64,000 bases of DNA from an uncultured Collinsella sp. (GCA_947642445.1 CANRSF010000013.1:1-64000), one strand, 5' to 3'; counted from the stretch's first letter, positions 18,654 to 60,041 are shown. Notes: generated by a model from the letters alone, not told the origin. A program made the numbers and translations.

Positions 18654-18665
18654 GGGGACGGTTTG

Positions 18666-18720
18666 TCTCGATCTGTAACAGGTAGGCAGCCAAAACCGGG
18701 CTTGGTGTTACAGATCGAGA
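18666..18720. repeat. 55-bp hairpin, copy 1
   Basis: TCTCGATCTGTAACA and TGTTACAGATCGAGA are exact 15-bp arms around 25 bases. A related 55-bp copy follows 24 bases later. The GH1/DUF4867 intergenic region (343 bases) consists mostly of these three palindromes. Confidence 0.85.
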
Positions 18721-18744
18721 TTTTCGGGCAGCCCCCGCAGTTTG

Positions 18745-18799
18745 TCTAAATCTGTAACAGGTAGAGACGATTTAGCCCGCTAGATGTTACAAATCGAGA
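18745..18799. repeat. 55-bp hairpin, copy 2
   Basis: Left arm TCTAAATCTGTAACA, right arm TGTTACAAATCGAGA. The length is the same as copy 1 and the loop begins GGTAG in both, but the arms differ in three positions. It ends nine bases from the DUF4867 stop codon. Confidence 0.8.
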
Positions 18800-18808
18800 C
18801 GGAAGGTG

Positions 18809-50064: not shown

Positions 50065-51210
50065 ATGAACAGGCTTTTCGACAAATCGATTGTGCTGGCG
50101 TGCTGCATCGCAGCCGCCACAGGCCTTGCTGTGGACGCTCGCTTAGTCGCGGCGTTTTGCCTGGGCGTTATTGCCACCTCACTGGCCGAGGTCGCACAGG
50201 GAAATCGCGCCCGCCGTGCGAGCGAGGCCGTGAGCTACGCTTACATCATCGCGGCTGTCTTCGTGCCGCCGTTTATGCCGTTTGCGCCTCTCGCCCTCTA
50301 TGACATCGCGCGGCGCGTGCGCCGTGAGCACGCCTGGATCGCGTTGGGTGTCGGTGCTGTCTTTGCCTGTGCGCTCGTCGCGGACCTTCGCGGCGGCGCG
50401 CTCACCACCCGAACGCTGCTGCTAACCGCCATTCTTTCGGTCGCCGCCACGTTGCTGTCACTGCGCACCGCGCAGCTGGAGCGCGAACAGGAACGCATGC
50501 GCCGTACCCGCGACGAGCTGCAGGAACGAGCCCTCGCGCTCGAAGCGCGCAACCGCGATCTTGCCGACCGCCAGGACTACGAAGTCGAGCTCGCGACGCT
50601 CGCCGAACGCGCCCGCATCGCGCGCGAGATCCACGATAACGTCGGACACCAGCTCACGCGTGCCTCGCTACAAGCCGAAGCCCTGCGCGTGATCCACGCC
50701 GACGAGCCCGGCGTCGCCGCCGATTTCGCCGACGTCAAACGCACGGTTGACGAGGCGCTCCAACTTGTGCGTACTAGCGTCCATGCGCTCAACGACAACG
50801 CTGTCGACCTTTCCGTGCAGCTCGAACGCATTGTTGAAGGCGCGCGCTCGGACGGCGGCCCGCAGATTGAGCTTGAAGTTATGACCGAACATGCGCCCGC
50901 AAATGTCGCCAACTGCTTTGCGGCGGTCCTTCGCGAGGCGCTTTCCAACGCCATGCGCCACGCCCATGCCAATGCCGTTACCGTGCGGTGCATGGAGCAT
51001 CCGTCGTTTTACCAGCTCATCGTTACCGATAATGGCGCGGACGCGACCCCGGCGAGCAGCAGCAACGTCGCAGAAGGCATGGGGCTCGGCTCCATGCGCG
51101 AGCGCGTCGAGGCGCTTGGCGGCACCTTCACCGCCGGTCCGCGCGCCGGTGCCGGCGGCTGGCGTGTGTTCGCCACCGTTCCCAAACAGCAAGGAGATGA
51201 GGGCCGATGA
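50065..51210 (+). CDS. Histidine kinase (HisKA_3, DesK/LiaS-like)
   Basis: A 381-residue kinase. Four or five hydrophobic segments fill residues 8-130, then a coiled coil (LEREQERMRRTRDELQERAL). The phosphoacceptor helix is ARIAREIHDNVGHQLTRASL (His about residue 192), and the ATPase domain has LREALSNAMRHAHANAV and GMGLGSMRERVEALGG. The start is the ATG at 50065 with a TACAAT box directly upstream, so the mRNA may be leaderless. It overlaps the response-regulator gene by four bases. The divergent ABC exporter is the probable target. Confidence 0.88.
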   Translation: MNRLFDKSIVLACCIAAATGLAVDARLVAAFCLGVIATSLAEVAQGNRARRASEAVSYAYIIAAVFVPPFMPFAPLALYDIARRVRREHAWIALGVGAVFACALVADLRGGALTTRTLLLTAILSVAATLLSLRTAQLEREQERMRRTRDELQERALALEARNRDLADRQDYEVELATLAERARIAREIHDNVGHQLTRASLQAEALRVIHADEPGVAADFADVKRTVDEALQLVRTSVHALNDNAVDLSVQLERIVEGARSDGGPQIELEVMTEHAPANVANCFAAVLREALSNAMRHAHANAVTVRCMEHPSFYQLIVTDNGADATPASSSNVAEGMGLGSMRERVEALGGTFTAGPRAGAGGWRVFATVPKQQGDEGR

Positions 51211-51836
51211 GGCTCATCGTTGTCGACGACGACCGCCTAGTGGTCGATTCGCTCAAGATTATCCTGGGCGCCCAGCCGCAGATCGAGGTGGTGGGCACCG
51301 GCGCCAATGGCGACGACGCGGTCGCGCTCTACGCCGAGCACACGCCTGACATCGCGCTGCTCGACATTCAGATGCCGGGACGCGACGGGCTTTCGGCGGC
51401 ACGCGAGGTCCTTGAGCGCGACCCTTCGGCGCGTGTGGTGTTCCTGACGACATTCTCGGATGACGAGTACATTGTGTCGGCACTCAAACTGGGCGCCCGC
51501 GGCTATCTGATCAAGACCGATGTCGCCGCCATTCCACCGGCGTTGGCGCAGGTCATGGACGGCAAACGCGTGCTCGAGGGAAAGGCGATCGAGGATATCG
51601 ACTTTAACGGAACGGGCGTTGAGGCGGGCACGCTCCGCCGGCCTGCGGCCTTTGCCGACCTGACCGACCGCGAGTTCGAAGTCGCCGAGCTCATCGCCCG
51701 CGGTCTCGACAACAAGGAGATCGCCGCCACCGCCTATATGGGCGAAGGCACCGTACGAAACCACATCAGCTCAATCCTGGCAAAGATGAGCCTGCGCAAC
51801 CGCACGCAGATCGCCATCGCCTACCTGCGAGGGTAA
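51207..51836 (+). CDS. NarL-type response regulator
   Basis: A 209-residue regulator. Receiver: VDDDR, phosphoacceptor in IALLDIQMPGRDG (Asp about residue 52), Thr in VVFLTTFSDDEY and Lys in YLIKTD. The LuxR helix-turn-helix is at the C-terminus (LTDREFEVAELIARGLDNKE and GEGTVRNHISSILAKM). ATGA overlap with the kinase gene. Likely controls the divergent exporter operon. Confidence 0.92.
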   Translation: MRLIVVDDDRLVVDSLKIILGAQPQIEVVGTGANGDDAVALYAEHTPDIALLDIQMPGRDGLSAAREVLERDPSARVVFLTTFSDDEYIVSALKLGARGYLIKTDVAAIPPALAQVMDGKRVLEGKAIEDIDFNGTGVEAGTLRRPAAFADLTDREFEVAELIARGLDNKEIAATAYMGEGTVRNHISSILAKMSLRNRTQIAIAYLRG

Positions 51837-51871: not shown

Positions 51872-52050
51872 GGCTGCTACCGATTTAATGACATTTCAAA
51901 ACTAAGCCGGTTTACGGGGCTAAACTCAGGACCCCCATCCATACCCGCGTTTTCTGCAAAATGACGGCTCGTCTACCTGCAGTTTTATTTTCACGAATAT
52001 CGGCATGGTTGGGGACTCGTGACTCAGCCCCGTAAACCGGCATAGTTTTG
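51872..52050. repeat. Type 1 nested palindrome, left copy (154-bp core)
   Basis: The core 51897-52050 starts CAAAACTAAGCCGGTTTACG and ends CGTAAACCGGCATAGTTTTG, 25-bp arms with one mismatch. Inside are CATACC/CATGGT and a degenerate version of the AAAACCGCAGG/CCTGCGGTTTT hairpin. A further 25 bases to the left (GGCTGCTACCGATTTAATGA) are shared with the copy at 59447. It lies 35 bases after the response-regulator stop. Confidence 0.9.
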
Positions 52051-52090
52051 TTTGAACGGTCCTGCGCGAACGCACCCACCAGCCGCGTGG

Positions 52091-52137
52091 GGCCAAAAAT
52101 GATCCGTTTTCCTCCGTCCCCGGGGGATCATTTGGCG
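52091..52137. repeat. Type 3 palindrome with GTCCCC centre
   Basis: GGCCAAAAATGATCC and GGATCATTTGGC arms around GTTTTCCTCCGTCCCCGG. A decayed version lies at 59406-59445 and a trace of the centre at 59180. Confidence 0.8.
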
Positions 52138-52144
52138 GCGCCAA

Positions 52145-52302
52145 CCACGAAATCGGCCCATCTACTACGTTTGACTCGATACCCCTGACCATGCCTTCGT
52201 TTTGAACAAAACCGCAGGCGTTCTACCTGCGGTTTTGTTTTCGCGTTTTTTGGCATGGTTGGGGGTAAGGGGATAAACGTAGTAGATGGGCCGATTTCGT
52301 GG
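52145..52302. repeat. Type 2 nested palindrome, left copy (158 bp)
   Basis: The 28-bp arms are perfect: the left starts CCACGAAATCGGCCC and ends TACTACGTTT. Further in, CCATGCC/GGCATGG pair, and the centre is the hairpin AAAACCGCAGG-N7-CCTGCGGTTTT. Nearly the whole element can fold into one long stem. Same length as the copy at 59220. Confidence 0.92.
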
Positions 52303-52330
52303 CGGCCCTTCCTCCCCTGCGCACAAAAGT

Positions 52331-52365
52331 GCCGCCACGGAGAAGGGAGACGTCTCCGTGGCGGC
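52331..52365 (-). terminator. Terminator of the giant surface-protein gene
   Basis: GCCGCCACGGAG and CTCCGTGGCGGC form a perfect 12-bp stem 80-115 bases after the stop codon, followed on the minus strand by ACTTTTGTG. Next to it lies a run of three GGGGG blocks (52366-52383). Confidence 0.7.
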
Positions 52366-52444
52366 TGGGGGTGGGGGTGGGGGCTATGTTCTGGCTTCCC
52401 GCCGGCCGCCCAGGGCCTTTTGGCCCCGGGCGCTGCCAGCGTGC

Positions 52445-55400
52445 CTAGCGCTTACGGATACCCCAGACCAGGGCTCCGACGCCGGCCATGGCGATGACAA
52501 ATGCCATGAGCAGTGCGGCGGCCTGCTGGTCACCCGTAGTGGGCAGGAAGCCCTTAACCGTCTTGACGATGTTCGTCACGGTCTTGGACGTACCGGGGTC
52601 GGGCGTCGGCACGGGCGTCTCGGGCTTCTTGTACATGTTGTTGAACACGATACCCTCGACACTCTTGTCGCCCTTGGTAAAGGTGACGTTCGCCTTGAGG
52701 CTGCCCTCGCCGTCGTCGACCACGTTGACGGTCGCGGTAAAGACGGACTTGTCATAGGTCATACTGGCCTCGTCGCCCTTGACCTCGCTGATGGTGTAGA
52801 CGTACGTACCGGGCTCGTCGTACTCGAACTTGTCGAAGTTGATCTTGCCGTCGGCATCGTTGGTGACGGTGGACTCGATGTCCTCGCCAACGAGCTTAAA
52901 GCTAAACTCGTCCTTCTTGAGCTCGCGTCCCTCGAGCACCTTGATGGCGCCGATGGAAACCTGCGTGGGCATGGCGTGATACTTGTTAGTAAAGCCAGCC
53001 GACTCGGTGGCTCCCTCGAGCTTGTGCGTCGCGGTCAGCGTGCCGTCGCCGTTGTCGGAGACGGTGGTCACGACGGTATAGGTCGCGCCGTCATAGGTGA
53101 CGCCCTTGTACAGGCCGAGCGCGTTGGGGCAAGCCTCGCGCAGCGTGTACGTGTGCGTGCCGGGCGCCTCATAGTGGATCGGGCTCAGCGTAACGGTGCC
53201 GTTGGCGTCGTTGGTGCCGCTAGCGACAACCACGCCGTCCTCGAGCAGATCAAACGTGAACTCGCCGGCTGCAAGGTCGCGTCCGGTCAGACGCTTGACC
53301 GTCTTGACCTGATCGGTCACGGAAGAATCGGTGGGTGCCACGCTGTACGTGTTGGTGAACGTAAAGTCCGCACCGTCGCCGCCGTCGCGCTTGACGCTCA
53401 GATGTCCAGCGCCGTCATCGGTCACGGTGTAGGAGACCTTGCGCGTTACGTTAGCGTCGTTGGTCACGCCAGGGGCGCTACCGGACTCGGTCACCGTATA
53501 GGTAAAGGTGTGCGAGCGCGGGGCGGTGGGGGCTGCGGGCTCGGACTCGTCCTTGGTCTCGTCACCGCTGGCGTCAGCGTCAACCTCGGCCTCGTCGGCG
53601 TTGGCTTCAGCGTTGTTCGATGCATCGCCAGAAGCGTTGTCCGTCACGCCCAGGGCGCGGTTGAGGTCATCGAGCGTAAAGTGGATCTTGCCAAAGTCCA
53701 CGTTGCCGGCCGCGTCGTTGGTTGCGGTCGTGCGCTCGGGCATCGGGGCACCCGCCTCATCGGCGGCCACGGTAAAGATGAACTTACCCGTGATGTCTGC
53801 CGGGGTCAGGCCCTCGGCAGCCTGGAGCTTCTTGGTGCCGGCGAGCGCGGCGTCAACGGCATCGGCGCCGTAGACGTTCTCGAACAAGGGCTCGATGCCA
53901 CCGTAGTCGACCGTTGCCGTCAGGGTACCGTCACCGTTATCGACGACGATAACCTTAAAGCCAAAGTACCACGTTGTAGCAGAAACGCCGTTCGGCAGCC
54001 CGTGTATAGCTTCGTAGGCCGTGTAGTTAATGGTCCAAGCGAGCTTACCGTCCTTGTCGGTACGATGGGCAAGCCCAGCAGACTCAAGATCGGCAAGCAT
54101 CTTGGTGTCGTAGTGCAGCGCATCAAAGCTCACGTGCCCGCCGATATTGGGCTTGAGATTTTCATAACCCACAAGCTCACCCTGATAGGCAATGCCGAAC
54201 CAGAACTCGCCGTCGGCCATCGGGCGACCGGTCAGGGTCTTGGCGGCAACGACCTGAGCAACGGTGCCACCAGGTGCATCGGTCGTAGCGCTATAGCTGT
54301 TGACGAACGGGACCACGGCGCTCTCGACCGCAGCCGCGCCGGTCTTGTACTCGGTCACCAGCGTGCCCTCGGGACCGCCGGAGACGGTCGTCGTGGCGGT
54401 GAGCGTACCGGCGGTGTCGTCGGCGATAGCGATCGTCACGGTGCGCTCGGCATCGTCGTAGGTGTAACCGGGCTGGCCGTCATTCTTCTCGGCAACGGTG
54501 TATGTAAAGGTCTTACCCGCGTCAGCCTGCGTAAACTTGACCTCATGGCCCGCCAGAATGTCAATCCGACCGACCGTTGCCTCTGCCGTCGCAGGGGACT
54601 TGTACACGTTGGCGCCCTCGTGCAGGCCGAGCGCGGTGGCAGAAGCCGCATCGGCGGGCGTCACGGTAAAGGTGAACTGGCCCTCGGTCATGGGGCGTCC
54701 GTAGAGGGTCTTGCTGAGCTTGAGACCGCCGGCCGCGGCGTAATCGAGCTCAGTGCGGTACGTGTTGGTAAAGCGTCCGTTTTCCTTCTTAGTGACGTTG
54801 GCGGTCAGGGTGCCATCGCTGTCCTCGGTCACGGTCACTTCGGCGGTTGCGACATGCGGGTCATACGTCATGCCGACCGTGCTGCCCGCGTTCTCGCGAA
54901 TCTCGTACTTATAGGTTCCGGCGGCAGCGTAGTGGATCTTGCCGAACTTGATGGCGGCGATGCCGTCCTTCGCGTCCCTCTTGTTCACGGTTACGGTTGC
55001 GGGATCGGGCAGCGGGGCGCCCTCGGGAGCGGTGATGGTAAAGCTAAACTCGTCCCCATCCGTCCAGTCGCGACCGTCGATAGCCTTGCTCAGACCAAAG
55101 TCGAGCTCGGTCTCGAGCGGGGTCACGTTGTAGGTGTTCTTGAAGATCGCGGCCTCGGCATTCTTCAGAACATGCTGGGCACTGAGCGTGCCGTCGCCGT
55201 TATCGGTGATGGTCGTCACGATGGTGAACTTGGCATCGCTGTAGGTGACGCCCTTGCTGGTGGTTCCGCCGTTGACCTCGCGCAGTGTGTAGGTGTGCTT
55301 GCCGGGTTTGTCGTACTTGACGGCGCCCATCGTGATCGTGCCGTCGGCAGCGTTGGTGCCGGTGACGACGACCTCGCCGTCCTCGACGAGCTCGAAGGAG

Positions 55401-58400
55401 AACTCGCCTTCCTTGAGGTCGCGCCCGGTCAGGACCTTCTTCGCGGTGATCTGGTCGGTGACGCTGGACTCGTCAGGATTCGGCTTGTAGCTGTTGTTGA
55501 ACTTCGCCTCGTTGGCGCCCTGCAGCTCGTGCTTGACCGTGAGCTTACCATTGCCGTCATCGGTAACGGTAGTCACGATGGTGTAGGTCGTGCTGTCGTA
55601 GGTAATGCCGTTGCCTTCGGCGCCCTTGGCTTCGCGCAGGATATAGGTGTGCTTGCCGGCGGCGGTGTAGGTGATCTTGCCCATCGTAATCTTGCCATCG
55701 GCGTCGTTAGCGCCGGTGGCGACGACCTCGCCGTCCTCGACGAGCTCGAAGGAGAACTCGTCGGCCTTGAGGTTGCGTCCGTCCAGAACCTTGGTCGCGG
55801 TGATCTGGTCGGTGACGCTGGAGTTATTCGGAGTAACGCTGTAAGCATTCTCGAAGATAGCCTTCTCGACGTCCTGCAGCTCATGCTTAACCGTGAGCTT
55901 GCCATTGCCATCATCGGTGACGGTGGTCACGATGGTGTAGGCCGCGGTGCTGTAGGTGATACCGTTGTCGGCGTCGACCTTGGTCTCGCGCAGCATGTAG
56001 GTGTGCTCGCCAGCCGCAGTGTAGGTGATCTTGTCCATCGTGATCTTGCCGTCGGCCGCATTGGTGCCCCTGGCGACGACATCGTTACCCTCGACGAGCT
56101 CGAAGGAGAACTCGCCTTCCTTGAGGTCGCGGCCTGTCAGGGTCTTGGTCGCGGTGATCTGGTCGGTGACGCTGGACTTATTCGGGGCAGTGTTGTACTT
56201 GTTCTCAAAGCGTGCCGTCTCGGGACCCTCGAGCGTATGGGTCACCTTAAGCGTGCCGTCGCCGTTGTCGATGACGCTCGTCTTGACGGTGTAGTTCGTC
56301 TTATCGTACGTAATCCCGTTGCTCAGCCCCGCCTCGTTGGGGAGCTTCTCGCGCAGCGTGTAGGTGTGATTGCCAGGCTTGTCGTAAGTGATCTTGTCCA
56401 TGGCAATCGTGCCGCCGGCAGCGTTAGTGCCCTTGGCGACGACCTTGTTACCCTCGACGAGCTCGAAGGAGAACTCGCCCTCCTTGAGGTCGCGCCCGGT
56501 CAGGACCTTGGTCGCGGTGATCTGGTCCTCGACAGGCTTCACGCTATAGGTGTTCTTGAACTCGGTCTCGCCCGAGGTCTTTTCAACGTCGGCCTTAAGC
56601 TCGCCCTTGGCGTTAACCGTCACAGTCACCTTGAACGTGGCAACGTTCTTGCTGTAGGTAATGCCACCGGCGTCGCCCTTGACCTCGCGGACCTCATAGG
56701 TGTACTCGCCCGGCTCGGCATAAGTAATCTTGCCAAAGTTAATGGCTGCCTTGCCCTTGTCGAGATCGGCATTGGTCACAGTTACGGTCGCGGGGTCGGG
56801 CATCGGGGCATTGTTGTCGGACGTCGCGGAGAGCTCAAACTCAAACGCATCCGTATCCGCCCACTTGCGGCCCTCGAGCACCTTGGTCAGGCCAAAGCTC
56901 GCCTTGGTATCCACCGTTGCCGGCGTCATATCGTACTTATAGCTGATCTTACCGTTGTTGCCCAAGTAGGAATTGACATGCGTAGCACCCGCCTTGGCGG
57001 ACACGTTGTTCCACCTGGGGTTAAGCACGTCGGTCGCGGTGCTGGTCTTGTTGCCACCAACGCTGTCCTTGGTGGTGTGGAGCTCATCGATAAAGGCCAG
57101 GCGTGCGGTTCCCACGCTAAACACTAAGTTGCCGTTCTCATCAGAAACTATGGCCCCGTCAAACTTCGCAGTGTCGCCGCCGATAAACTCGATGACGGCG
57201 GTGGCGGGCTTGGCCTCGCCGTTCTCGCCCTGCTCCTCAAACTCATCCTTGTAGTAATAGGTACCTTTCTCTGCCAGTGAATTCTTTGCAGGCTGTGTGC
57301 AGTCCTTGTCCGTGTAAATGGGAGTCTGCTTCTGGAAGTAGTAGTAGCGGTTGGTATCGGCCGGCTCAAAGTTCGCAACCGTATCACCCAACACACCAGC
57401 CTTCCACTTGTTCGCGTAGAAGCTCACGGTCTTGCTGCCATCGTCGGCAACGGTCGTATTCTTTTCGATGTAAGCCTTGAGCCCCGTGACCTCCTCAGGC
57501 GTAAATAGGTTGTCGAGCGCAACACTCTTCACGCTCGAGGCATACTTCACCTGAATGGGCTTAACGTTGTCGACCGAAAGCTTGCCGTCTACGGTCTTAA
57601 AGTGGCTCAGCGGAATCAACGACGCAGGAATGTTAACCGTTACGATATCGCCCTTCTGGGGATTGTCAGCGCCAGCACGCTGCACGGTAATGAGCAGGTC
57701 TTTCGCCTTGTCGGTGAACTCGTAGGTGTCGGTATTGGTTTCTTTATTGACCGTTTTGTCCGTCTTGGTAAACGGCGTGCCGTTGATAACGACTTCGGTA
57801 AATCCGTCAACCTGCATAAAGTCGCCCAGCTCATCGGTAAACGTGATGTAGCCAGACTTGGTCTCGTCATATCCCTTATGGATTTCGGTCGGATAAGGTT
57901 TCTCCGACGTAATGGCCTGCGAGATGTCGTCGAAGACCTTCTTGAGCTCTTCGGCATTGGTCGCCGACTTATAGTAGTCGGAGTTTTCCGCGCGCGTACC
58001 GTGAGTATCCCATGCCGTGGCATTGGGGTAGTTGCTCGAAACGGCCTGCATGAACTTGTTCTCTTTTTGGCTTTTTCCCGAATCCTGGATACCAGCGCTG
58101 GGGTTCGCGCCATCAAAGATGCCGACAGTATAAACGGTAGCCTTGCTGTCCTTCATGTTCTTGGCAGCCGTCACAGCATCGTTAGCAACCTTAGGATCAA
58201 ACTCTTTGTAGCTCGTTGGCGTGCCGTCGGTAAAGAACACAACAATCTTCTTGGCGCCCGCGCGACCAGAAGTGATGCCCTCTGCCAGCTGCAGGCCATT
58301 GTCGGCGCGCGTTGCACCAGCGGGTGTAATCTGGGCAATCCTATGCTTAAGAGCTTTCACGTTGCCGCCGGAGCAATCGGTCAGGTTTTTCATAACCTGT

Positions 58401-58993
58401 GTGTAATTGTAGGTGTATCCTCCGTCACGATACGTCTCGTTGCCGATATTGTTGGACGTCTTGCCCGCAAACTTAACGATAGCAACCTTATGCTGCCTAT
58501 CCACGCCCTCGATGCCCTCGTTTTGTTTGGCAATGGCGTCGATGAAGCTGCTGGCAGCGCCCTCCAGCGCATCGATGCGCCTGGTGGGATCTCCACCGCC
58601 CATCTCATCATCCATCGAGCCAGAGGCATCCAGCACCATCACGATGTCGAGCGGCGTGGTAACCGTCACGGTTGAATTAGACGTCGAGGACATGGCCGAA
58701 AGCGTAGTCAGGAAATCCGACTTTTCGTTTTCCTCGGTTGCCTTGACCGTCTTGTCGGTCCAGATTCGGTCGACGTGTTGGGTCGTTACTTTATTGCCGC
58801 CATGGCCAGCCGCCCAGATTTCCCAGCGACCGCTCGTATCGGGGTCGACGACCGTTTTTCCGGTCATGGTCGGTCCATCCATTCCGGTGCTGGACCTGGC
58901 GTTGGCCTCGGGCAGCATGGCAAATGCTGCAGCCGGCAACACCAGCACTACGGCCAGTATCACCGCCAAGAGACCCCTCGTGTGCTTGCTCAT
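52445..58993 (-). CDS. Giant VWA and multi-pilin-domain LPxTG surface protein
   Basis: A 2182-residue cell-wall adhesin. Signal peptide at 1-35 (RGLLAVILAVVLVLPAAAFA). A von Willebrand A domain at about 95-330 has the MIDAS motif LDASGSMDDE, followed by a linker domain to about 680. Then come eleven tandem FctA/Spy0128-type pilin isopeptide or Cna-B-like domains, each opening with a version of TDQITATKVLTGRDLKEGEF and closing with a FENxY motif. The sorting signal is FLPTTGDQQA, a hydrophobic helix and RKR. Sortase would attach it to peptidoglycan, and intramolecular isopeptide bonds should stiffen the stalk, placing the VWA tip far outside. The ATG at 58993 has GAAGGGAGA upstream. No sortase gene is nearby. 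The gene is flanked by mirrored nested palindromes. Confidence 0.92.
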   Translation of the reverse strand: MSKHTRGLLAVILAVVLVLPAAAFAMLPEANARSSTGMDGPTMTGKTVVDPDTSGRWEIWAAGHGGNKVTTQHVDRIWTDKTVKATEENEKSDFLTTLSAMSSTSNSTVTVTTPLDIVMVLDASGSMDDEMGGGDPTRRIDALEGAASSFIDAIAKQNEGIEGVDRQHKVAIVKFAGKTSNNIGNETYRDGGYTYNYTQVMKNLTDCSGGNVKALKHRIAQITPAGATRADNGLQLAEGITSGRAGAKKIVVFFTDGTPTSYKEFDPKVANDAVTAAKNMKDSKATVYTVGIFDGANPSAGIQDSGKSQKENKFMQAVSSNYPNATAWDTHGTRAENSDYYKSATNAEELKKVFDDISQAITSEKPYPTEIHKGYDETKSGYITFTDELGDFMQVDGFTEVVINGTPFTKTDKTVNKETNTDTYEFTDKAKDLLITVQRAGADNPQKGDIVTVNIPASLIPLSHFKTVDGKLSVDNVKPIQVKYASSVKSVALDNLFTPEEVTGLKAYIEKNTTVADDGSKTVSFYANKWKAGVLGDTVANFEPADTNRYYYFQKQTPIYTDKDCTQPAKNSLAEKGTYYYKDEFEEQGENGEAKPATAVIEFIGGDTAKFDGAIVSDENGNLVFSVGTARLAFIDELHTTKDSVGGNKTSTATDVLNPRWNNVSAKAGATHVNSYLGNNGKISYKYDMTPATVDTKASFGLTKVLEGRKWADTDAFEFELSATSDNNAPMPDPATVTVTNADLDKGKAAINFGKITYAEPGEYTYEVREVKGDAGGITYSKNVATFKVTVTVNAKGELKADVEKTSGETEFKNTYSVKPVEDQITATKVLTGRDLKEGEFSFELVEGNKVVAKGTNAAGGTIAMDKITYDKPGNHTYTLREKLPNEAGLSNGITYDKTNYTVKTSVIDNGDGTLKVTHTLEGPETARFENKYNTAPNKSSVTDQITATKTLTGRDLKEGEFSFELVEGNDVVARGTNAADGKITMDKITYTAAGEHTYMLRETKVDADNGITYSTAAYTIVTTVTDDGNGKLTVKHELQDVEKAIFENAYSVTPNNSSVTDQITATKVLDGRNLKADEFSFELVEDGEVVATGANDADGKITMGKITYTAAGKHTYILREAKGAEGNGITYDSTTYTIVTTVTDDGNGKLTVKHELQGANEAKFNNSYKPNPDESSVTDQITAKKVLTGRDLKEGEFSFELVEDGEVVVTGTNAADGTITMGAVKYDKPGKHTYTLREVNGGTTSKGVTYSDAKFTIVTTITDNGDGTLSAQHVLKNAEAAIFKNTYNVTPLETELDFGLSKAIDGRDWTDGDEFSFTITAPEGAPLPDPATVTVNKRDAKDGIAAIKFGKIHYAAAGTYKYEIRENAGSTVGMTYDPHVATAEVTVTEDSDGTLTANVTKKENGRFTNTYRTELDYAAAGGLKLSKTLYGRPMTEGQFTFTVTPADAASATALGLHEGANVYKSPATAEATVGRIDILAGHEVKFTQADAGKTFTYTVAEKNDGQPGYTYDDAERTVTIAIADDTAGTLTATTTVSGGPEGTLVTEYKTGAAAVESAVVPFVNSYSATTDAPGGTVAQVVAAKTLTGRPMADGEFWFGIAYQGELVGYENLKPNIGGHVSFDALHYDTKMLADLESAGLAHRTDKDGKLAWTINYTAYEAIHGLPNGVSATTWYFGFKVIVVDNGDGTLTATVDYGGIEPLFENVYGADAVDAALAGTKKLQAAEGLTPADITGKFIFTVAADEAGAPMPERTTATNDAAGNVDFGKIHFTLDDLNRALGVTDNASGDASNNAEANADEAEVDADASGDETKDESEPAAPTAPRSHTFTYTVTESGSAPGVTNDANVTRKVSYTVTDDGAGHLSVKRDGGDGADFTFTNTYSVAPTDSSVTDQVKTVKRLTGRDLAAGEFTFDLLEDGVVVASGTNDANGTVTLSPIHYEAPGTHTYTLREACPNALGLYKGVTYDGATYTVVTTVSDNGDGTLTATHKLEGATESAGFTNKYHAMPTQVSIGAIKVLEGRELKKDEFSFKLVGEDIESTVTNDADGKINFDKFEYDEPGTYVYTISEVKGDEASMTYDKSVFTATVNVVDDGEGSLKANVTFTKGDKSVEGIVFNNMYKKPETPVPTPDPGTSKTVTNIVKTVKGFLPTTGDQQAAALLMAFVIAMAGVGALVWGIRKR
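55140..56560 (-). repeat. Near-identical tandem domain repeats within the giant gene
   Basis: Four consecutive domain-coding units of about 355-360 bp share long nearly identical stretches; for example the block containing CTCGAAGGAGAACTCG recurs near 55389, 55745, 56098 and 56459. The other domains are far more divergent. This points to recent duplication and makes copy-number change by recombination likely. Confidence 0.85.
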
Positions 58994-59044
58994 CGCGTCT
59001 CCCTTCTCGCGGGCTTGACCTTGCATCAGCCTAAAGTTACGGAA

Positions 59045-59124
59045 TGAGACACAATTTGGGCAGGTGACACACGTTCCAGATTCGATTTTGAGCGTGAGAC
59101 AAATGTCTCACCAAAATTGAGACA
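59045..59124. promoter_or_regulatory. Cluster of TGAGACA boxes upstream of the giant gene
   Basis: TGAGACA occurs at 59045-59051, 59095-59101 and 59118-59124, and its reverse complement at 59104-59110. Two of them form the perfect palindrome GTGAGACAAATGTCTCAC (59094-59111). Located 50-130 bases upstream of the start codon, these look like regulator-binding sites. Confidence 0.6.
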
Positions 59125-59219
59125 CGGGATTTTTGCAGGAAAACGAGTGCGACTCAAGATGGGCTGGGGCAAAAGGGCGCGTTTTCCTCCATCCCCGAGG
59201 GAGCAGTCGATGGTGCTCG

Positions 59220-59377
59220 CCACGAAACCGGCCCATCTACTACGTTTAACCCGATACCACTGACCATACCCGCATTTCATGAAAAACCGCAGGCGTTCTA
59301 CCTGCGGTTTTGTTTTTGCGTTTTTCGCTGTGGTTGAGGACAGCGGCCTAAACGTAGTAGATAGACCCATTTCGTGG
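59220..59377. repeat. Type 2 nested palindrome, right copy (158 bp)
   Basis: Same outer sequence (CCACGAAACCGGCCC...TACTACGTTT), same central hairpin AAAACCGCAGGCGTTCTACC and same length as 52145-52302. The right arm has several changes, so the outer stem is weaker. Confidence 0.92.
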
Positions 59378-59405
59378 CAGACGGGTCACGCGGCGGCCCT
59401 CGCGA

Positions 59406-59445
59406 GGCCAAAATGATCCGTTTTCCTCCGTCCATGGGAGATCAA
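59406..59445. repeat. Decayed type 3 palindrome
   Basis: GGCCAAAATGATCCGTTTTC and CTCCGTCC are kept, but the right arm is reduced to GAGATCA. Same orientation as 52091-52137. Confidence 0.65.
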
Positions 59446-59446
59446 A

Positions 59447-59625
59447 GGCTGTTATCGACATGGTGACATTTCAAAACTATGCCGGATTACGGGGCTAAAG
59501 TCGGGGTCCTCATTCATACCTCCATTTTTTGAAAAACGGCAGGCCATCTACCTGCGGTTTTGTTTTTTCGATTTTCTGTATGGTCGGAGGTTCGCTATCC
59601 AGCCCCGTAATCCGGCATAGTTTTG
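59447..59625. repeat. Type 1 nested palindrome, right copy (154-bp core)
   Basis: Core 59472-59625. Arms CAAAACTATGCCGGATTACG and CGTAATCCGGCATAGTTTTG pair perfectly over 25 bp. Compared with the left copy, GGTTTAC/GTAAACC has become GGATTAC/GTAATCC, a paired change in both arms. The centre has AAAACGGCAGG/CCTGCGGTTTT. Confidence 0.92.
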
Positions 59626-59699: not shown

Positions 59700-60041
59700 C
59701 TATTCCGGCTTGGTTTCTACCGTGGGAGTCTTATCCGCTGCGACTGGGGTACGGGCGGTATCCATAGTCAGGCAGTGTTTGGGGCAGCTTTCGATGCACT
59801 CGCCGCACACCACGCAGGCGTACGGGTCAATCGACCAGGTGCCGCCTTTGCGATCGACCGCGAGTGCGCCCGCCGGACAACGCCGAGCGCACATGCCGCA
59901 GCAGATGCACACGTCCATGTCATTGACAATATGCCCGCGCAGGCGCTCGGGCGCCGTCAGTTTCTCCTGCGGATAGCACACCGTGACCGGCTGCTTGACC
60001 ATAGAACCCAAGGCCGTCTTGGCAAATGTCAGCAAACTCAT
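59700..60041 (-). CDS. Ech hydrogenase ferredoxin subunit (EchF-like)
   Basis: A 113-residue iron-sulfur protein with two 4Fe-4S motifs: CICCGMCARRCPAGAL (about 45-60) and CVVCGECIESCPKHCL (about 76-91). This matches EchF/HycF/NuoI-like subunits, which pass electrons between soluble ferredoxin and the NiFe module. The tail after residue 95 is short and Thr/Pro-rich. It is the last gene of the operon, eight bases after the large subunit. Confidence 0.85.
   Translation of the reverse strand: MSLLTFAKTALGSMVKQPVTVCYPQEKLTAPERLRGHIVNDMDVCICCGMCARRCPAGALAVDRKGGTWSIDPYACVVCGECIESCPKHCLTMDTARTPVAADKTPTVETKPE

Follow-up and report, generated by a model that had tools for sequence, protein, structure and literature searches.

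Layout of the adhesin locus

The window analysed here is a stretch of 64,000 nucleotides from an uncultured Collinsella sp. (GCA_947642445.1 CANRSF010000013.1:1-64000) that carries the gene for a giant surface protein, an adhesin, flanked by long palindromes of two types (T1 and T2) and by a shorter hairpin (T3). The predicted adhesin has a signal-like N terminus, a VWA domain, 11 Spy0128/FctA isopeptide domains and an LPTTG sortase anchor. Direct reading and repeat finding give the order T1, T3, T2, adhesin gene, T3, T2, T3, T1, with the following features in window coordinates:

51207..51836, + strand: LuxR-type response regulator gene (Pfam Response_reg and GerE), the conserved left neighbour
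51897..52050, - strand: T1, left slot, a 154 bp palindrome whose core reads on the - strand (covariance model (CM) E 4.5e-35)
51972..51986, - strand: core of the left T1, with one substitution, AAAACTGCAGGTAGA
52095..52134, no strand: T3 hairpin AAAATGATCCGTTTTCCTCCGTCCCCGGGGGATCATTT; this repeat is dispersed, with about 20 genomic matches
52145..52302, - strand: left T2, 158 bp, a direct repeat of the right T2 (CM E 6.5e-39)
52222..52236, - strand: core of the left T2, AAAACCGCAGGTAGA-type; the equivalent site is the IS110 insertion point in other copies
52445..59026, - strand: giant surface protein gene, 2,193 aa
59165..59205, no strand: decayed T3 between the adhesin start and the right T2
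59220..59377, - strand: right T2, 158 bp
59297..59311, - strand: core of the right T2
59398..59444, no strand: decayed T3 between the right T2 and the right T1
59472..59625, - strand: T1, right slot, 154 bp
59547..59561, - strand: core of the right T1
59700..60041, - strand: 4Fe-4S ferredoxin-type gene, the conserved right neighbour

An earlier, sequence-only reading of this DNA had described a mirrored order in which copies of one type are equal in length and all central modules point the same way. Direct reading and repeat finding bear this out, with three T3 copies at the locus rather than two. The two T1 copies (154 bp each) are 76.6% identical and the two T2 copies (158 bp each) are 82.3% identical, in both cases without gaps, and the core has the same orientation in all four, reading AAAACCGCAGGTAGA on the - strand, i.e., TCTACCTGC[A/G]GTTTT on the + strand. 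The outer arms of T1 and T2 are 83-100% complementary over 25-51 nt. This complementarity, together with dispersed matches in the same genome at E values down to 1e-34, places the palindromes far beyond chance. The paired change between the T1 copies that had been noted previously, from GGTTTAC/GTAAACC to GGATTAC/GTAATCC, is real when read directly. A perfect inner hairpin is mainly a trait of T2 copies like those at the locus, while most family members keep the left half of the core and not its pairing partner. Conserved tails extend beyond the palindromes by about 10 bp on one side of T2 and about 20 bp on one side of T1.

Adhesin presence and absence at the T2 repeats

We compared the locus in the window with that of 20 other species, using one genome per species. 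Wherever the contig allows a check, the response regulator and ferredoxin genes again flank the locus; 18 of the 20 loci have the response regulator on the left, and the remaining two are cut before that gene. The adhesin is present in 15 of the 20 species as well as in the window (16 species), in the arrangement T1-T2-adhesin-(T2)-T1, and the same elements bound the adhesin loci of other species. Relative to the window protein, these adhesins are 56-90% identical in the N-terminal third and about 78-84% identical in the C-terminal part. Several adhesin-bearing species lack the right T2 while keeping the right T1, and have a lone T3 where others have T3-T2-T3.

Four species (G036, G006, G007 and G008) lack the adhesin at the locus and instead carry T1-T3-T2-T3-T1, in which the left spacer is of the left-pair type and the right spacer of the right-pair type. 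Their single T2 is a hybrid, left-type and then right-type, with a log-likelihood that exceeds that of an all right-type element by 36 to 52 and that of an all left-type element by 149 to 178. The breakpoints lie at element positions 33-59 (G006, G008), 105-109 (G007) and 110-118 (G036), and these three classes argue for several events. On a tree of the flanking genes, four changes of the adhesin-less state are needed, at least three of which are forced by well-supported branches. The adhesin is also absent in G020, where one half of a T2 and one half of a T1 are linked by an IS110 element.

The repeat-bounded presence and absence of the adhesin, the hybrid T2, the several breakpoints and the like behaviour of T3 favour homologous-type recombination, and it is probable that recombination between the direct T2 repeats changes adhesin presence, with T1 and T2 serving as portable homology. 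In this mechanism, the two T2 copies, about 7 kb apart, would recombine to remove the adhesin and leave one hybrid T2, and the same recombination in reverse would insert the adhesin in a Campbell-type gain. The right T2 would be lost in a like manner through the T3 direct repeats, and IS110 elements homing to the core would generate further deletions. RecA-type recombination, and not a dedicated recombinase, would presumably act, with adhesin loss commoner than gain. The mirrored order is best explained by a single T1-T3-T2-T3-T1 block opened at T2 to give T1-T3-T2-adhesin-(T3)-T2-T3-T1. An inverted duplication was considered as the source of this order and rejected, as the cores point one way where a duplication would have reversed them, and the adhesin-less species show the unopened block. 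The sequence-only reading had suggested that the palindromes let adhesin cassettes be exchanged, an idea that is partly supported in that adhesin presence changes by recombination inside T2.

A near-invariant core, adhesin presence or absence exactly between the two T2 copies, and an IS110 recombinase that cuts this very core speak for T2 or its core being a dedicated site-specific recombination site, with adhesin cassettes excised and integrated by a recombinase. This is quite unlikely, however, given that the crossovers fall in three different intervals with none forced to the core, that the interval bounded by the flanking genes holds no recombinase gene, and that T3 and a 67-bp repeat (AGTTGCGGTGAAATA) appear to act alike without this site. 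Alternatively, palindrome-helped slippage, rather than RecA-dependent recombination, may take place between the T2 copies.

Several points weigh against recombination between the T2 copies as the explanation. The comparison holds one genome per species, so switching within a species is not seen, and adhesin absence in the adhesin-less genomes was read at this locus only. Support for the tree, which is built from linked genes, is weak, and fewer events might be needed if adhesin-less alleles had moved from one species to another. The T2 copies are 82-85% identical and their longest shared tracts are 20-34 bp, which is short for efficient RecA recombination. The direction at the locus could be either gain or loss, and we found nothing that mobilises the repeat.

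A second locus, at C6:93614 in the window's own genome, looks like the same process driven by another repeat. T2 is present there in about 15 species. Additional DNA of 6-8 kb adjoins T2 in G001, G020 and G007, and occurs without T2 in G034. G010 has neither T2 nor the cargo and retains one 67-bp palindrome of the AGTTGCGGTGAAATA type, which resembles the right-hand copy of the other species; this palindrome appears to have mediated the deletion in G010. The extra DNA (L332-L335) is species-specific and occupies the same intergenic region as T2. The 67-bp palindrome, AGTTGCGGTGAAATA...TATTTCACCGCAACT, at times with a GCAGGTAGAAGC centre, is found at T2 sites of other species (L195, L214, L304-L336).

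A dispersed repeat family with a constant core

The palindromes are not confined to the adhesin locus. A genus-wide search found T2 at nine full-length places in its own genome. Of 45 genus genomes, 28 had T2 matches, and these almost always measure exactly 158 bp even though copies are often only 71-85% identical. A CM of the family, built from 36 copies, counted about 14-20 strong copies per genome (G000, G002, G026, G008), and an exact T2-arm scan of GTDB r220 returned 99 stretches, with each listed record titled Collinsella. T1 and T2 align gap-free in one 158-column frame and are therefore subfamilies of one repeat, which on the alignments is dispersed, non-coding and a long palindrome, with inverted outer half-sites at fixed spacing around a one-sided core. 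Depending on the species, the left and right T1 slots hold either T1b or T1c, and the flanks are near-identical.

Other genera of Coriobacteriaceae have weaker relatives, 147-160 bp long, with a AAAACCGCAGGTAGA-like core close to the middle. Their inner inverted pair is CGAGTAGAC/GTCTACTCG, versus ACCATGCC/GGTATGGT in Collinsella, and their outer arms are wholly different in sequence in each genome. The 30 arm matches in G089 all fall into pairs, 15 in total, whose members are 113-114 nt apart; several pairs have an identical change in both arms. No phage records carried the repeat, and 16 core matches in an IMG/VR scan, none with arms, were taken as chance. Plasmid records gave one match, C. 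aerofaciens NZ_OY725717.1 (899,693 bp). It agrees with contig C6 of G008 in length and in T2 coordinates, and looks chromosomal. Another palindromic family forms array-like repeats (GTCTCGATCTGTAACAGGTAG.../TCTCGATCTGTAACATCTAG) at window positions 18665-18800 and is also seen in L107, L118, L187 and L092.

Lone T2 arms are mostly elements that have been split at the core. The insert is about 1.56 kb and encodes a protein with the DEDD_Tnp_IS110 and Transposase_20 domains; both domains and a fixed target place it in the IS110 family. We found 16 junctions at AAAACCG^CAGGTAGA, in both T1 and T2 and in several strains, and count them as at least eight separate insertions. Insertion of IS110-family elements into repetitive extragenic palindromic (REP) repeats is established for IS621, ISPa11 and ISPpu9 (PMC1525189, PMC11208160), and the element described here is likewise inserted at one fixed position of a dispersed palindromic repeat. 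It differs from these cases in that the target repeat and the IS are both new and lie in Coriobacteriaceae, and in that the bridge-RNA guide match is not significant: ACCTGC and AAATCCG occur in the predicted loop, but 369 of 3000 shuffles (12%) were as good, and we do not regard the match as evidence. An IS256-like element, its family named by eye, lies near the core of one G008 T1 (L357:376-2040) with an apparent 8-bp duplication, GCCGTCTA. A second IS-like end, GCACTGACATTTGTC, lies beside GGCTCTT(A/G)GCTG in L009, L081, L090:3923, L105 and L123, and is possibly that of a related IS with another target.

The sequence-only reading had also raised the possibility of a structured RNA. In a wider form of this idea, T1 and T2 would be structured RNA elements or terminators kept by selection on the stem. 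Across the 36 copies, the outer stem has 206 two-sided changes compared to 85 in shuffles, with none of 500 shuffles as high, and the arm-to-arm match is therefore clearly maintained. The covariation proposed earlier as a check is thus present between subfamilies, but it is nearly absent among orthologous copies, which show one-sided arm changes and almost no compensation. Outer-stem mispairs show no preference for wobble (16 G:T and 16 A:C). With G:T and A:C equally rare and the partner side of the core degenerate rather than conserved, a structured RNA is not supported. Elements are enriched between convergent genes (45 of 102, with 48 between tandem and nine between divergent genes) relative to background (5 of 33; Fisher p 0.003), a result that is only suggestive given a crude gene caller and a small background of 33 intergenic gaps in the window; between tandem genes they show no strand preference (28 vs 20). 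The inner T2 hairpin does resemble a bidirectional terminator, but neither T1 nor T2 has an Rfam match at gathering or relaxed thresholds. Taken together, selection on an RNA stem is very unlikely. Across species, orthologous slots change by 0.015-0.066 in the arms, 0.054-0.097 in the core, 0.11-0.15 in the linkers and 0.15-0.29 in the flanks. The arm pattern fits half-sites conserved in DNA, or copies correcting one another, better than it fits a stem preserved through compensatory change, and the element may be copied as a hairpin, as had been proposed.

Origin of the repeat and relation to known systems

A mobile palindromic element is plausible given the family-wide dispersal, although we find no autonomous partner, target duplication or link to a RAYT gene. 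The repeat may first have spread as a non-autonomous mobile element of the REPIN type or of the miniature inverted-repeat transposable element (MITE) type, and either origin is compatible with recombination at the adhesin locus. Two dispersed T2 loci gave no clean empty site, with the alternatives carrying other palindromic repeats, and a near-identical T2 pair in G002 was rejected as a clean insertion because the homology runs well beyond T2.

That T1 and T2 are REPINs, i.e., REP doublets spread by a RAYT (Y1 HUH) transposase, is possible but doubtful. As in published REPINs (PMC3116915), they have two highly conserved ends, inverted and a fixed distance apart, around a spacer that is less conserved, form one hairpin with paired arms at an invariant 154 or 158 bp, and are intergenic and non-autonomous. 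RAYT-like Y1_Tnp genes of 250-350 aa occur in most of the genus, and a GTAG tag is present in T2 and T1c arms and in the core. However, the tag is absent from T1b and G089-type arms and is not obligatory, in 20 RAYT loci no T1 or T2 flanks the gene and no core lies within 1.5 kb, and several of the RAYTs have different, GGGACGGGG-type hairpins beside them. The elements are also longer (150-160 bp) and fewer (about 15-20 copies) than REPINs, with an extra conserved core. REP ends bear a GTAG or CGTC tag next to a short palindrome of their own; read by eye, a single T1 or T2 arm shows no clear hairpin. The RAYT-like genes (L229-L248) are of several types, several with their own flanking hairpins (GGTAGCTAATTTGGGACGGGG, ATGATTTTTCTGGGACGGGG, CTCATTGGGGACAGAC, CCTGCCAAAAAGGGACAGG), and T3 shares a GGGACGG-like motif with these hairpins.

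An origin as MITEs of an extant DDE insertion sequence with the same inverted repeats is unlikely. Inverted arms of 25-28 bp, a non-coding interior and dispersed intergenic copies fit this origin, and the inverted repeats are terminal in position, although the conserved tails outside the palindrome complicate the term. Against it, the T2, T1 and G089-type arms stand at short fixed spacing or are split by IS110 or IS256-like elements, with no gene-bearing copy seen among them, and the arms vary between subfamilies where the core is common. There is also no excess of 2-9 bp direct repeats at the palindrome ends, though the tails leave the true ends uncertain. A further idea, which we regard as rather doubtful, is that T1, T2 and their Coriobacteriaceae relatives form a new non-autonomous class recognised by hairpin shape and the constant core, with arms free to change if matched. 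If true, such recognition would account for a core that stays constant across the family although each lineage has entirely different, well-paired arms.

In behaviour, the nearest known system is the neisserial dRS3/NIME array, in which identical repeats have been proposed as the site of pilC1 integration or deletion and are also a phage target (PMC3898611). As around N. meningitidis pilC1, short intergenic palindromic repeats lie beside surface-protein genes and are targets of mobile elements; at the locus studied here, dispersed intergenic repeats flank a surface-protein gene, with deletion or insertion between copies, and we claim no homology. The sequences and host phylum differ, the invader is a filamentous phage there and IS110 here, and dRS3 is 20 bp with nearly 700 copies, compared to 154-158 bp and about 15-20 copies for T1 and T2. 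Correia elements (PMC3898611) are similar in size (100-155 bp), have inverted repeats of about 26 bp and lack a transposase, but they have a TA target duplication, whereas T1 and T2 have none that we found and combine variable arms with a constant core. We found no description of these Coriobacteriaceae repeats in the open-access literature. The repeat family itself is new, and its kind is already known from Neisseria NIME/dRS3 and from REPIN- and Correia-like elements.

By comparison between genomes, we have demonstrated a family of fixed length with core-specific IS110 insertion, and hybrid T2 scars whose differing breakpoints indicate more than one event. A repeat present across the family, and in neither Rfam nor the open-access literature searched, doubles as an IS110 landing site, and its constant core and changeable arms raise the question of what recognises it. 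Collinsella is a common human gut commensal with surface proteins that vary between species, and recombination between T2 copies would provide a concrete mechanism, with a readable scar, by which a pilin-like surface protein of 2,193 residues is gained or lost.

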